This document shows, piece after piece, positions 7,197-12,731 of a stretch of 34,510 nt of DNA. The DNA is taken from positions 1-34,510 of the forward strand of contig JALTHG010000026.1 in assembly GCA_027004715.1 (NCBI GenBank), read 5' to 3'. Made by a program: the position numbers and the translations under genes. This DNA comes from Deltaproteobacteria bacterium (GTDB lineage: Bacteria; Desulfobacterota; Dissulfuribacteria; Dissulfuribacterales; UBA3076). A model generated the notes under the pieces. It saw only the letters and a list, made by a program, of their open reading frames with translations, ran no database searches and had not been told where the DNA came from. Position 1 is the stretch's first letter. The number at the start of each line of letters is the position of its first letter.

Positions 7197-8609
7197 CTAT
7201 ACATCAAAGTATAGATAGAATTCATAGGGATGTGGACGCAGCCTGACTGCATTGATCTCATGTTCTGTCTTATAGTCGATCCACATATCAATGACGTCCT
7301 GTGTAAATACGTCTCCCTTTAGCAGGAATTCGTGGTCTTCCTTGAGTGCCTCTATGGCCTCTTCTAGAGAGCCAGGAGCTGAAGGGATACTGGCCAGCTC
7401 CTCAGGTGGCAGCCCATAGATATCTTTATCTAGGGGTTCACCAGGATCGATCTTGTTCTCAATACCATCAAGGATTGCCATCAGCATTGCAGAGAAGGCC
7501 AGATAGCCATTACAGGACGGATCTGGAGTCCTGAATTCAAGTCTCTTGGCACCAGGAGAAGGAAAATACATGGGTATACGGACCGCAGCGCTCCTGTTTC
7601 GGCTTGAGTAGGCCAGGTTTACAGGGGCCTCAAAGCCTGGCACCAGACGCTTATAAGAGTTTGTAGAGGGATTACTGAAGGCACAGATGGCACGGCAGTG
7701 TTTGAGGATGCCACCTATACTGTATAGACCTATATCGGAAAAACCGGCATATTTGTTACCTGAAAAGACAGGTTGACCGTCCTTCCATATGCTGATGTGG
7801 GTATGCATACCACTGCCATTATCGCCAAAGAGGGGCTTTGGCATAAAGGTGACCGTCCGCCCATTTCTGTAGGCCACATTTTTGAGTACATACTTGAACC
7901 ACATGAGGTTGTCGCCCATCTTGACCAGGGGTTTAAAACGCATATCTATCTCTGCCTGCCCTGCAGTGGCCACCTCGTGGTGTTGGCATTCAACATCAAC
8001 ACCTACCTGCTGTAATGTTGTCAACATCTCGCTTCTCAGGTCCTGGAATTTGTCCATAGGTGGGACTGGGAAATAGCCTTCTTTGTGGCGGGGTTTATAG
8101 CCCAAATTAGGGCACTCATCCCTCCCTGTATTCCAGATTCCCTCTAGTGAATCCACTTCATAGAAGCATCCATTACTGCTGTTATCAAAACGCACATCGT
8201 CAAAGATAAAGAATTCAGCCTCAGGACCAAAGTAGGCAGTATCGCCAATGCCTGTATTCTTTAGATAGGCCTCGGCCTTTTTGGCTATATTTCTGGGGGC
8301 CCTTGAATATGGTTTCCTGGTTATGGGGTCTATAACGTCTCCAATCAGGACCAGGGTAGGTATCTGCATAAATGGATCTATCTGTGCTGTGCTGGGATCT
8401 GGGACAACAAGCATATCGCTGGCATTGATTGGCTGCCATCCACGTATACTTGAGCCATCGAAGCCAAAGCCCCCCTCAATACTGGCCTCGCTCAGCTCGC
8501 ATATAGGCACACTAAAGTGCTGCCACAGTCCCAAAAAGTCAACGAAGCGAAGGTCTACCACCTTGATACCCTTCTCGCTTGCCATGTCCAATACCTGTCT
8601 TGGTGTCAT
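7197..8609 (-). CDS. glnA: Glutamine synthetase, type I
   Basis: ATP-dependent condensation of ammonia with glutamate, the main entry of ammonium into metabolism; a cytosolic dodecamer. At 470 residues it has the length of the GSI-beta group. Hallmarks are [15 protein letters not shown] near the N terminus, [10 protein letters not shown], the metal- and substrate-binding [10 protein letters not shown] and [11 protein letters not shown], and the ATP-binding [20 protein letters not shown] segment. The adenylylation loop [11 protein letters not shown] carries Tyr398, equivalent to the Tyr modified by GlnE in E. coli, so covalent control is likely. A strong AAAGGAG site precedes ATG 8609. It is the last gene of a run amt-amt-glnB-glnA; the 68-base gap to glnB shows no sigma-54 element, so cotranscription is likely. 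Confidence 0.98.
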
Positions 8610-8677: not shown

Positions 8678-9025
<348 letters not shown>

Positions 9026-9043: not shown

Positions 9044-10258
9044 TTATATAGAATAGCCAACTTCACTGTGTTGACTGATGTCCAGCCCCTGGACCTCTTC
9101 TTCTATATTTACTCTAAGTCCTAGAGTAATATCAATTGCCTTGAGGATAATAAAGCTGACAACAAATGAATATATCATGGTTGCCCCTACTCCTATTGCC
9201 TGTACTATAAACTGATGTGGATTCCCAAAGAAGAGGCCATTCGCACCATGCGGATTCATGGTGACTGAGGCAAAGAGCCCTGTGGCCAATGCACCCCATA
9301 TGCCCCCAATCCCGTGTACCCCAACTGCATCCAGGGCATCGTCATAGCCAAGTCTGGATTTGGCCAGCACGGCCATATAGCAGAGTACACCGGCTATCAG
9401 GCCAATAATTATAGCAGATACCGGGCTGACAAATCCAGCAGCAGGGGTAATTGCAACCAGCCCTGCCAGGGCCCCAGATGCGGCTCCAAGGGTCGTAGGT
9501 CTACCCTGAAGTATCCATTCAGCAAAGACCCATGAGAGGGTGGCCGCTCCAGCAGCTACCTGTGTGGTAATGAAGGCCAGACAGGCGCTTCCTCCTGCTG
9601 CAAGGGCACTCCCTGCATTAAAACCAAACCATCCAAACCACAATATGCCACCTCCCAGGATAGTAGCTGGCAGGTTATTGGGGTGAAATATCTCATGACC
9701 CCATCCCCTTCTCTTGCCTATAATGAGTGCGGCTGCCAGGGCAGCCATACCGCTATTGATGTGGATTACAGTCCCTCCGGCAAAGTCAAGGGCCCCCATC
9801 TTTTCAAGCCATCCGCCACCCCAGACCCAGTGACACACTGGCATGTATACCAGAGAACTCCACAGAAAGGTGAATATCAAGAAGGCAGAAAATTTCATCC
9901 TCTCAGCAAAGGCACCTGTTATGAGTGCTGGAGTCAAGACTGCAAACATCAGTTGAAATGTACAAAAGAGCAGGCTTGGGATGCTGTCTGAGTATGGGCC
10001 TGGTCTTGTGCCCACACCATTCAGCCATGCCCAGTGGAGATTTCCAATAAATCCACTAATATCAGGACCAAATGCCAGGGAGTAACCATAGGCAACCCAG
10101 ATAATAGAGACTATCCCCAGGCAGATAAAGCTCTGCATAACAGTGCTCAAGACATTTTTGGAACGTACAAGGCCTCCATAAAACAGCGCCAGCCCAGGGG
10201 TCATGAACATGACAAGGGCACTGGCTGTCAACATAAAGGCTATATCGCCTGTATTCAT
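9044..10258 (-). CDS. amt: Ammonium transporter (second Amt of tandem pair)
   Basis: Inner-membrane ammonium channel of the Amt/Mep/Rh family, about 404 residues with eleven predicted membrane helices. The twin pore histidines lie in VIHINSGMAALAAALI and VHGIGGIWGALATGLF. The family motif GGFVRSKN-like segment appears as GGLVRSKNVLSTVMQS, and TLGAASGALAGLVAITPAAGFV is also present. The C-terminal cytosolic tail needed for PII gating is present (EEEVQGLDISQHSEVGYS). The frame runs back to a TTG at 10303, but ATG 10258 (MNTGDIAFML) aligns with the start of the neighbouring Amt and is preferred. It lacks a cleavable signal peptide. It lies 48 bases after the first amt and 28 bases before glnB, clearly one operon. 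Confidence 0.95.
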   Translation of the reverse strand: MNTGDIAFMLTASALVMFMTPGLALFYGGLVRSKNVLSTVMQSFICLGIVSIIWVAYGYSLAFGPDISGFIGNLHWAWLNGVGTRPGPYSDSIPSLLFCTFQLMFAVLTPALITGAFAERMKFSAFLIFTFLWSSLVYMPVCHWVWGGGWLEKMGALDFAGGTVIHINSGMAALAAALIIGKRRGWGHEIFHPNNLPATILGGGILWFGWFGFNAGSALAAGGSACLAFITTQVAAGAATLSWVFAEWILQGRPTTLGAASGALAGLVAITPAAGFVSPVSAIIIGLIAGVLCYMAVLAKSRLGYDDALDAVGVHGIGGIWGALATGLFASVTMNPHGANGLFFGNPHQFIVQAIGVGATMIYSFVVSFIILKAIDITLGLRVNIEEEVQGLDISQHSEVGYSI

Positions 10259-10305
10259 TATCTTATTGTCTTTCTGTAATTGTTCATATCCATTTTTATA
10301 CAAGA

Positions 10306-11535
10306 TCAGGCATTATAGGCCGTTTCACTGTGTTCGCTCAGGTCCAGACCCTCGATCTCTTTTTCTCTTGGCAATCTCAGGCCTACAAGGACATCTACAA
10401 GCTTTAACAGGACCCAGCTTACTACAAAGGCATAGACTGCTACTATTGATACAGCAAGGGCCTGGACCCCAAAAAATCCCGGGTTTCCTGCAAAGAGGCC
10501 ATCAGCGCCCCCAGGATTTACTGCCTTAGTGGCAAAGAGCCCGAGACAGAGTGTGCCAAGCAGCCCACCGACACCATGGATGCCTACGACATCCAGACTG
10601 TCATCGTAGCCAAACTTACCTTTGGCATTTACTGCCATATAGCAACAGACTCCAGCCAAGAGACCTATAATGACGGCAGAATTTGGGCTGACAAATCCGG
10701 CTGCAGGTGTCACTGTGGCAAGACCTGCTATTGCACCTGAGGCCGCACCGAGTGTTGTGGGCCTGCCACGGTGCACCCATTCTAATAGGACCCACATGGC
10801 CATTCCAGACATGCCGGCAAGATGGGTAGATACAAAGGCCGTTCCAGCAACTGCATTTGCAGCCAGAGCACTTCCGGCATTAAACCCAAACCATCCAAAC
10901 CAGAGGATCCCTGCACCGAGGAGCGTCATTGGGAGGTTATGGGGCAGGAAATTCTCTTTTCCATATCCCTTGCGTCGGCCCAAGACCAGGGCTGCAGCCA
11001 GGGCCGCGGCACCAGATGTCAGATGTACTACCAGACCCCCGGCAAAATCCAGGACCCCTTTGGCCTTTAGCCAGCCACCAGCACCCCATACCCAGTGACA
11101 TACTGGATTATAGACCACAATGGTCCAGAGGAGACTGAATAAGAGAAAGGGACCAAAACGCATACGTTCTGCAAAGGCCCCTGTGATAAGGGCAGGAGTG
11201 ATCACTGCAAACATGCACTGGTAGATCATAAATACTGTCTGCGGTATAGTCGGGCCATAGTCAGGATTAGGTGCTGCCCCTACTCCCTTTAGTCCCATCC
11301 ATGAGAGATTCCCAATGAGACCCCCGACATCAGGGCCAAAGGACATGCTATAGCCCACATATATCCACTCCAGACTGACTACAGAGATGATAATGAAGCT
11401 CTGCATAATGGTACCCAGCACGTTTTTGCTCCTTACCATCCCTCCATAGAACAGTGCCAGGCCAGGGGTCATCAAAAATACCAATGCCGCTGCAATCAGT
11501 ACAAATGCAGTATCTCCTCCTTGGATCTGAGGCAT
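10306..11535 (-). CDS. amt: Ammonium transporter (first Amt of tandem pair)
   Basis: An inner-membrane ammonium channel of 409 residues, paralogous to the next gene downstream. Pore histidines lie in VVHLTSGAAALAAALV and IHGVGGLLGTLCLGLF. It also has GGMVRSKNVLGTIMQS and TLGAASGAIAGLATVTPAAGFV. The C-terminal PII-contact tail EKEIEGLDLSEHSETAYNA closely resembles that of its partner, suggesting that the same PII protein gates both. The two proteins differ in pore-helix segments, pointing to an old duplication. AAGGAGAT sits seven bases before ATG 11535. It is the first gene of the amt-amt-glnB-glnA run and is preceded by a sigma-54-type promoter near 11596-11611 with upstream palindromes. Confidence 0.96.
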   Translation of the reverse strand: MPQIQGGDTAFVLIAAALVFLMTPGLALFYGGMVRSKNVLGTIMQSFIIISVVSLEWIYVGYSMSFGPDVGGLIGNLSWMGLKGVGAAPNPDYGPTIPQTVFMIYQCMFAVITPALITGAFAERMRFGPFLLFSLLWTIVVYNPVCHWVWGAGGWLKAKGVLDFAGGLVVHLTSGAAALAAALVLGRRKGYGKENFLPHNLPMTLLGAGILWFGWFGFNAGSALAANAVAGTAFVSTHLAGMSGMAMWVLLEWVHRGRPTTLGAASGAIAGLATVTPAAGFVSPNSAVIIGLLAGVCCYMAVNAKGKFGYDDSLDVVGIHGVGGLLGTLCLGLFATKAVNPGGADGLFAGNPGFFGVQALAVSIVAVYAFVVSWVLLKLVDVLVGLRLPREKEIEGLDLSEHSETAYNA

Positions 11536-11595
11536 AGACTATCTCCTTTCAGACTTACATTTTTGTTATACCACTGCCTAAAAGGAGAATTATTA

Positions 11596-11611
11596 AGCAA
11601 AGTGAGTGCCA
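11596..11611 (-). promoter_or_regulatory. Sigma-54 (RpoN) -24/-12 promoter of the amt-amt-glnB-glnA operon
   Basis: On the minus strand the sequence reads TGGCACTCACTTTGCT, an exact fit to the RpoN consensus TGGCAC-N5-TTGCW, with GG (11610-11609) and GC (11598-11597) separated by ten bases. The predicted transcription start is near 11585, giving a leader of about 50 bases before amt. Control by RpoN is normal for amt-glnK operons in proteobacteria. Confidence 0.85.
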
Positions 11612-11689
11612 CTGTCCTATCTTTGGCTAAACCTCTGTTTCTTTTGATTATTTACTCTTTAGTCACCTCCCTGATACAGGACCAAAAAT

Positions 11690-11731
11690 TACATTTTTGT
11701 AGTTTTTTACCTCAAATCCTACATTTTTGTA
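11690..11731. promoter_or_regulatory. Paired TACA-N4-TGTA palindromes, candidate enhancer of the amt operon
   Basis: Two identical 12-base sites TACATTTTTGTA lie at 11690-11701 and 11720-11731, centres 30 bp (about three helical turns) apart. They stand roughly 110 and 140 bases upstream of the predicted sigma-54 start, the usual distance for an NtrC-type activator. A third, slightly divergent copy TACATTTTTGTT is at 11556-11567, just downstream of the predicted start. The sites do not match the classical NtrC motif TGCACC-N5-GGTGCA, so a different activator may bind. Confidence 0.7.
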
Positions 11732-11745
11732 GTAAAATGTAACCC

Positions 11746-12546
11746 TCAAAATGCCAGGCTTACTGAGAGACCGGCATAGACAAAATTGTCCTTGGCACCA
11801 TGGCCTGCATTCCGCATCGCCATGTCCCTGGCTGCATCACTTGAAAGGGGAAAGGACCAGTCAACCTCTGGACTTACTGTAATATACCTATTTACAGGGA
11901 CATTTAGTGCAGCAGAGAGGAGGCCGTCGTGAAAGTCAATATACCTCTTGTCTGGATTATTGGGATCTGGATAGGCCCCTTTATCATTGGAGATCAAATA
12001 GCTCCCCTTCAGGCCAAGATCCAGGCTGATACCATGCCATGGAAGGGCCATGCTATGGGATACAGCCAAAGTAATATAGGTACTAGGGGCATGGGCAAAC
12101 TCCCTGTATATAGTCAGTGTGGGAGAGAGAAAGGTATTGAGTGTAGCAGACGCATATACCTCATGGCTATCATTTGTGTGGACCAGGTCATACCAGATAT
12201 AACCTATCTCCAGTCCAAAATGACCAAAGTCATGACTATAAGAAACTGTGGTATCTGTCTCATTCAGGTTGTCTGCATCGTATGAGGTGTCCCAGTAGTC
12301 TGTATCAATATTCTGCCATATATTGATGGCAAGGCCTTTATAGCCAACCGTAAAGGATGGCTCAATGATCAGACTATCTCTGCTGAGTTCTTGACCACGC
12401 CATATGTACTGGGTCATAAAGCTTATTGTTGCCTCTACCGTGGGTCTATTGCTATCGGCCCAGACAGGGACTGGAACTGTCATACAGTATATCAGTACTG
12501 CCAGAACTATCTCTTTGAATATCCTATTTTTGCCTCCCTTTTCCAT
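11746..12546 (-). CDS. Outer-membrane beta-barrel protein linked to ammonium transport genes
   Basis: A 266-residue exported protein. A signal peptide covers residues 1-30 (hydrophobic IVLAVLIYCMTVPVPV, cleavage after VWA). The mature part alternates hydrophobic and polar residues in many short strands, is rich in Tyr, Trp, Asp and Ser, and ends in Phe (GLSVSLAF), the usual signal for outer-membrane insertion. The opening strand FMTQYIWRGQELSRDS resembles the TorF/TIGR02001-like putative porins, whose transport role is not established. It is upstream of the amt operon on the same strand and has a similar promoter layout. I infer a role in passage of ammonium or another nitrogen compound across the outer membrane. 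AAAGGAG precedes ATG 12546. Confidence 0.75.
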   Translation of the reverse strand: MEKGGKNRIFKEIVLAVLIYCMTVPVPVWADSNRPTVEATISFMTQYIWRGQELSRDSLIIEPSFTVGYKGLAINIWQNIDTDYWDTSYDADNLNETDTTVSYSHDFGHFGLEIGYIWYDLVHTNDSHEVYASATLNTFLSPTLTIYREFAHAPSTYITLAVSHSMALPWHGISLDLGLKGSYLISNDKGAYPDPNNPDKRYIDFHDGLLSAALNVPVNRYITVSPEVDWSFPLSSDAARDMAMRNAGHGAKDNFVYAGLSVSLAF

Positions 12547-12593
12547 AGTGTTACTCCTTTCTGAGTATAAGATGAGATACTGTGTCTGATATA

Positions 12594-12609
12594 CTCAATA
12601 TTGATGCCA
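12594..12609 (-). promoter_or_regulatory. Candidate sigma-54 promoter of the outer-membrane barrel gene
   Basis: The minus strand reads TGGCATCAATATTGAG. The -24 half TGGCA is intact and the spacing to the -12 half is correct, but the -12 element is TTGAG where TTGCW is expected, losing a conserved C. The predicted start is near 12583, 36 bases before the ATG. The call rests on the matching arrangement at the amt operon; alone it would be weak. Confidence 0.5.
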
Positions 12610-12689
12610 TAGGACCTCTTCTCTAATTTTTGATCTTAAAACAGTTCTTTATAGGAAGACTATAGGAGATAAAATAGGAGTACTGTCAG

Positions 12690-12731
12690 GACATTTATGT
12701 AAGATTTAGGTCTGTTTTCTACAAAATGGTA
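12690..12731. promoter_or_regulatory. Paired palindromes upstream of the barrel gene, candidate enhancer
   Basis: GACATTTATGTA (12690-12701) and TACAAAATGGTA (12720-12731) each match TACA-N4-TGTA with one mismatch. Their centres are exactly 30 bp apart, and the nearer one is 88 bases from the candidate -24 GG, against 86 bases at the amt operon. The same pair geometry at two neighbouring nitrogen genes makes chance unlikely, although the individual sites are short and A+T-rich. Confidence 0.55.

Follow-up and report, generated by a model that had tools for sequence, protein, structure and literature searches.

Paired TAC-N6-GTA sites upstream of sigma-54 promoters as candidate enhancers of a NifA/AnfA-type nitrogen regulon

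The control of nitrogen uptake is poorly known in sulfur-cycling anaerobes outside the Proteobacteria, and the locus analysed here raises the question of which regulator switches on ammonium uptake and assimilation in such an organism. The stretch of DNA under study, 34,510 nt in length and referred to below as the window, carries a same-strand run of four genes (all minus strand) headed by a single amt promoter. The run consists of two ammonium transporter genes, amt1 (10306-11535; PF00909, E = 1.1e-128), the first under the presumed control, and amt2 (9044-10303; PF00909, E = 6.5e-133), followed by glnK/glnB, encoding a PII nitrogen signal protein (8678-9016; PF00543), and glnA, encoding glutamine synthetase (7197-8609; PF00120, E = 2.6e-132). 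No Rfam regulatory RNA was found in the window, where the only Rfam match was a tRNA.

Two promoters with paired upstream sites

The original prediction placed an exact RpoN -24/-12 element and two identical palindromes, 30 bp apart, upstream of amt, and all of its coordinates were confirmed. The sigma-54 promoter, TGGCACTCACTTTGC at 11597-11611 (minus strand), matches TGGCAC-N5-TTGC exactly and is the sole exact match in the window; relatives carry a sigma-54 element at the equivalent place, and transcription is predicted to start near 11585. The palindromes read TACATTTTTGTA at both 11690-11701 and 11720-11731 (TACAAAAATGTA along the direction of amt transcription), each a perfect TACA-N4-TGTA, with the centre of the proximal site 86 nt from the -24 GG. 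Because 2.2 sigma-54 matches with one mismatch are expected per window, a lone match of this kind is not significant, whereas the pair is. Single sites with at most one mismatch are likewise common, with 23 found vs. 10.8 expected, but the paired pattern (≤2 mismatches) occurred twice in the window vs. 0.00 times expected from 100 shuffles.

The second pair lies before a gene for an outer-membrane barrel, a Gcw_chp/TorF-like putative porin (11746-12546, minus strand; both family matches fall below cut-off) and the second likely target in the window. The layout described for amt recurs here as predicted: pattern matching located two sites with one mismatch each, TACCATTTTGTA (distal, 12720-12731, minus strand) and TACATAAATGTC (proximal, 12690-12701, minus strand), again 30 bp apart, and by count the proximal site is 88 nt from the -24 GG of a sigma-54 element, TGGCATCAATATTGA (12595-12609, minus strand). 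This element had been called weaker at -12, and it does carry TTGA there in place of TTGC. The same 15-mer nevertheless precedes the barrel gene in five related genomes (G002, G003, G006, G007 and G010) and is invariant in every barrel promoter seen, across two genera, which argues that the “weak” promoter is real; its start is predicted at about 12584. TTGA at -12 is a feature of three of the four pair-associated promoters (window 12595-12609; L005:945-959; L029:153-167). Further afield, a barrel relative in G269, 36% identical to the protein encoded in the window, adjoins an exact pair. If the pairs act as proposed below, the Gcw_chp/TorF barrel family, so far unexplained, would become linked to nitrogen starvation.

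Distribution of the pair in the genome and its relatives

The whole genome, an incomplete metagenome-assembled genome (MAG) of 1.44 Mb estimated to be 93% complete, was scanned for TACA-N4-TGTA pairs with 30 bp spacing and at most two mismatches. The pairs were not scattered: four locations were found, vs. none with a reversed-pattern control, and all four precede nitrogen genes or, in the case of the barrel, a gene beside them. Two are those described above, before amt-amt-glnK-glnA and before the barrel gene. The third, a perfect pair (C55:1062-1103), precedes a second glnK-amt operon, and TGGCACATCTGTTGA stands between the pair and the operon. The fourth (C40:11536) is 78 bases from a contig end. 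It was considered as a two-mismatch false positive, an explanation that was dropped when it proved identical, base for base, to the nifH promoter of a sister genome. The last 127 bases of C40 recur without any difference at the very start of contig C232 from the sister species G002 (L004:1494-1620 vs. L029:1-127), and C232 runs on from this overlap through TGGCACACCTCTTGA into nifH. Since an exact 127-base overlap looks like an assembly k-mer (k = 127), the organism itself probably has the nif cluster, and only the MAG lacks it. The nifH promoter of another relative, G003, also carries a pair, at 31 bp.

Conservation in relatives, which the original prediction had proposed as a check, was found across the order and the phylum. 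In the family (11 genomes), six genomes have the pair with at most one mismatch and all six encode a NifA ortholog of at least 87% identity, while the five genomes without the pair either have no NifA (four) or a NifA fragment (one); this co-occurrence is not independent, as amt, the barrel gene and nifA come and go together, and amt is mostly lost alongside. Across 46 genomes from 22 genera, a set at the level of the order, the pair was present in 26 of 36 amt upstream regions, vs. a shuffled mean of 0.03. Spacing was 30 bp in 21 of these and 31 bp in four, with other spacings as scattered single cases. Two local variations were seen in this set of relatives. An asparagine synthetase-like gene sits between the paired promoter and amt in G007 (L057:4200-5708) and is therefore a probable member of the nitrogen regulon in that genome, and in G042 (C1:564599-565596) the amt1 copy is broken by several stops and amt2 is intact.

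A sample of 395 genomes from the phylum yielded an exact pair in nine further genomes and none with the reversed pattern. Gene names at the nine loci come from tblastn matches to proteins of the window or from reading the translation. Eight of the nine pairs adjoin nitrogen genes or transporters: amt (four), glnK-amt, glnD, glnD together with a barrel relative, and an APC permease. A NifA ortholog (57-61% identity) is encoded in all eight of these genomes; among 31 control genomes, many of them from the same families and not random, about half have a similarly close NifA. The ninth pair, in G346, falls inside gltB/gltD coding sequence, and is taken as chance because this genome has no NifA. 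The exact pairs preceding glnD are at L237 (G269) and L234 (G310), and in one of these genomes glnD is divergent with the barrel relative.

Similar loci were found outside the phylum. Among 80 loci encoding NifA relatives, four from Spirochaete MAGs (L072, L077, L085 and L086) show the order nifA, pair (30 or 31 bp), amt, with glnK following amt in the three whose contigs run far enough. Pairs with a sigma-54 element nearby numbered three in the 80 loci, vs. 0.0 in shuffles. Several loci encoding the canonical NifA helix-turn-helix (WVQAKAARLLGMTPRQ type) have TGT-N10-ACA in place of TAC-N6-GTA.

These distributions bear on whether the pairs are a regulatory feature at all. A chance resemblance of AT-rich repeats is suggested by the abundance of single sites in the window, but the shuffles, the 26 paired amt regions and the empty reversed-pattern control in every genome that was pattern-searched rule out a chance origin of the pairs, and we give this explanation negligible weight. 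Taken together, the data argue that this regulatory module is genuine and conserved. Its most plausible reading is a nitrogen regulon of the NifA/AnfA type that also takes in ammonium assimilation.

A NifA/AnfA-type candidate activator

The genome encodes nine sigma-54 activators, which implies an rpoN gene. A single one is NifA-like (G000:C20:9025-10590), with the architecture GAF-AAA+-Fis (domains GAF, Sigma54_activat and HTH_8), and it passes the NCBIfam NifA model TIGR01817 with 540.9 bits against a cut-off of 528.85. By the NCBI NtrC model TIGR01818, none of the nine passes: the best score among eight is 469.6 against a cut-off of 558.6, and the ninth, which is cut by a contig end, scores 282.8. 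Orthologs of the NifA-like protein in the phylum are about 58% identical. In a tree it clusters with the NifA proteins of Spirochaetes and of the phylum, and is separate both from canonical NifA and from another NifA-type paralog that occurs in the order.

The DNA sites point in the same direction. The original prediction held that they differ from the classical NtrC box, and they do: the dyad is TAC-N6-GTA, and inspection by eye of the amt promoter region for an NtrC box (a TGCACC-type dyad) revealed no GCAC/GTGC dyad besides the -24 element. Nor did the 450 bases upstream of amt contain TGT-N10-ACA, the NifA site. Classical NtrC control was rejected both on the protein cut-off and on the DNA site. 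The proposal of an NtrC-family activator with another specificity thus stands in so far as it means sigma-54 activators in general, and probably fails in so far as it means an NtrC response regulator, as the half-site is that of AnfA, a NifA-type gene tracks the sites and no protein reaches the NtrC cut-off. The likely activator is a one-component protein of the NifA/AnfA type. AnfA/VnfA-type GAF domains carry a conserved cysteine motif; in the candidate this cluster is absent, the first 200 residues containing, by eye, just two cysteines that are not close together, and the protein is therefore not filed as AnfA proper, although we infer that it acts in an AnfA-like manner at the DNA. The NifA proteins differ in their helix-turn-helix sequences (SERILGLRV, TERIFGYKV, SLRIINYKI), so that one shared DNA specificity is an assumption. 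Plasmids were searched for annotated AnfA/VnfA proteins whose helix-turn-helix could be compared, and yielded only NifA and activators without a name.

A different activator could in principle bind the pairs, such as an NtrC/AtoC-like or NtrX-like response regulator, leaving NifA to control nif genes only. The other eight sigma-54 activators of the genome are possible candidates, and one relative, G029 (99% complete), has the pair before amt yet no NifA match at E 1e-110; moreover, amt-glnK genes of Proteobacteria are usually under NtrC control, as at Herbaspirillum nlmA-glnK-amtB (PMC3023670). Such an activator would, however, have to recognize the AnfA consensus half-site instead of an NtrC box in a genome where no protein qualifies as NtrC, and it would leave unexplained why nifH promoters have the same pair and why nifA lies next to the paired promoter of amt in Spirochaetes and, in G006 and G007, next to the barrel pair. 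We consider this alternative unlikely.

Our preferred reading, to which we assign a probability of roughly 0.8, is that the pairs are bipartite sigma-54 enhancers bound by the NifA/AnfA-type candidate, which would serve as a general switch for nitrogen genes. Under a shortage of fixed nitrogen, the activator would bind the TAC-N6-GTA pair as two dimers, and the 30 bp spacing, about three helical turns, would place both on almost the same side of the DNA. The two dimers would nucleate an AAA+ ATPase ring, and contact between this ring and the sigma-54 polymerase on the -24/-12 promoter would drive open-complex formation. As for NifA in general, the GAF domain is the probable target of the signal, either 2-oxoglutarate or PII. 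The regulon would comprise amt-amt-glnK-glnA, glnK-amt, the outer-membrane barrel and nitrogenase, and a NifA-type protein would do here the job that NtrC does in enterobacteria. One switch would then tie together ammonium uptake, glutamine synthesis and nitrogenase.

A separate observation concerns a NifA paralog without the AAA+ domain, encoded directly upstream of the barrel promoter in G002 (L060:2760-3587, minus strand) and G010 (L059:2578-3456, minus strand) and not found in the genome under study. It consists of GAF plus the canonical NifA helix-turn-helix, is 275-292 residues long with about 60% identity, and has the same excision boundaries in two genera. Differences between the two genes number 75, 60 and 132 at codon positions 1, 2 and 3, respectively, which indicates purifying selection. 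This protein could occupy NifA sites without activating, as a possible natural NifA antagonist.

A third amt site and comparison with known systems

A third site, absent from the original prediction, is present between the predicted amt start and the amt start codon. It reads TACATTTTTGTT at 11556-11567 (AACAAAAATGTA on the minus strand, a 7/8 match), and its centre falls roughly 24 nt downstream from where transcription is predicted to begin. The site is kept at the equivalent position in amt promoters of several genera (including L019:1666-1677): eight amt promoters have a site 42-44 nt 3′ of the -24 TGG, vs. 0.12 expected, and three others have similar sites. It is absent from the barrel promoters, as judged from their printed sequences.

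The position of this site is where a repressor would block the promoter, and short AT-rich dyads suit several repressor families. The pairs might accordingly be operators of a repressor or of a non-sigma-54 regulator, with the -24/-12 elements served by an unrelated enhancer. The location of the pairs themselves speaks against this. At those amt promoters of the order with a recognized -24 element, the distance from this element up to the proximal site is 64-88 nt; by count, it is 96-98 nt at the barrel promoters of relatives, 110 nt at the second glnK-amt operon of this genome and 111 nt at the G002 nifH promoter, all of which is typical of enhancers. Neither the 30/31 bp spacing nor the co-occurrence with NifA would be explained, and we regard operator function of the pairs as very improbable.

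The simplest guess for the third site is that it may serve as a feedback operator or in a governor role. At E. coli glnA, extra NtrC sites near the promoter, termed governor sites, are proposed to damp transcription. The amt promoter resembles glnA in having an extra activator site close to the promoter, and differs in that the extra predicted site is downstream of the start. An extended form of the preferred reading, in which a NifA/AnfA-type general nitrogen regulator replaces NtrC in much of the phylum and in some Spirochaetes, acts through the 30-bp paired enhancer and, when abundant, turns off its own target at the third amt site, is tentative and, as a whole, rather doubtful.

No paper describing a regulatory module of this kind was found in the open-licence literature searched. 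Its signature can be scanned for (two TAC-N6-GTA sites with a spacing of 30 bp, followed after 64-111 bases by a -24/-12 promoter), and together with a named candidate activator and a list of targets it should make nitrogen regulons predictable across the phylum and in Spirochaetes.

Among the closest known systems is AnfA of Rhodobacter capsulatus, whose consensus TAC-N6-GTA was set by promoter mutation and shift assays and which was shown to bind two sites per promoter, both needed for full activity (PMC7294313). Shared with that system are the dyad, its occurrence twice per promoter ahead of an RpoN element, and a GAF-AAA+-HTH activator, here a candidate whose binding we infer. The targets differ: the AnfA target is the iron-only nitrogenase operon, and those predicted here are amt-glnK-glnA, glnK-amt, the barrel gene and the nifH promoter. 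Azotobacter vinelandii VnfA1, as described in the available portion of its report, has the motif GT(T/A)C-N6-GTAC, with two motifs in most promoters (PMC9542535), and so resembles our sites in motif core, number and spacing. The VnfA1 targets named in that portion are vanadium nitrogenase, transport and metal-linked genes in a genome with separate NifA and AnfA, and an amt-glnK-glnA core regulon is not among them. At Herbaspirillum nlmA-glnK-amtB the target genes are the same, and glnK-amtB has a nitrogen-limitation membrane protein as its neighbour, but the activator is an NtrC response regulator with another DNA site (PMC3023670), whereas no NtrC is recognized here by the NCBI cut-off. Desulfovibrio DVUA0143, an AnfA/VnfA-like protein, is comparable as a NifA-family one-component activator from a related group of anaerobes, for which a motif has been predicted at nitrogenase operons (PMC4641369); the targets proposed for it are confined to such operons, and the regulon proposed here is wider.
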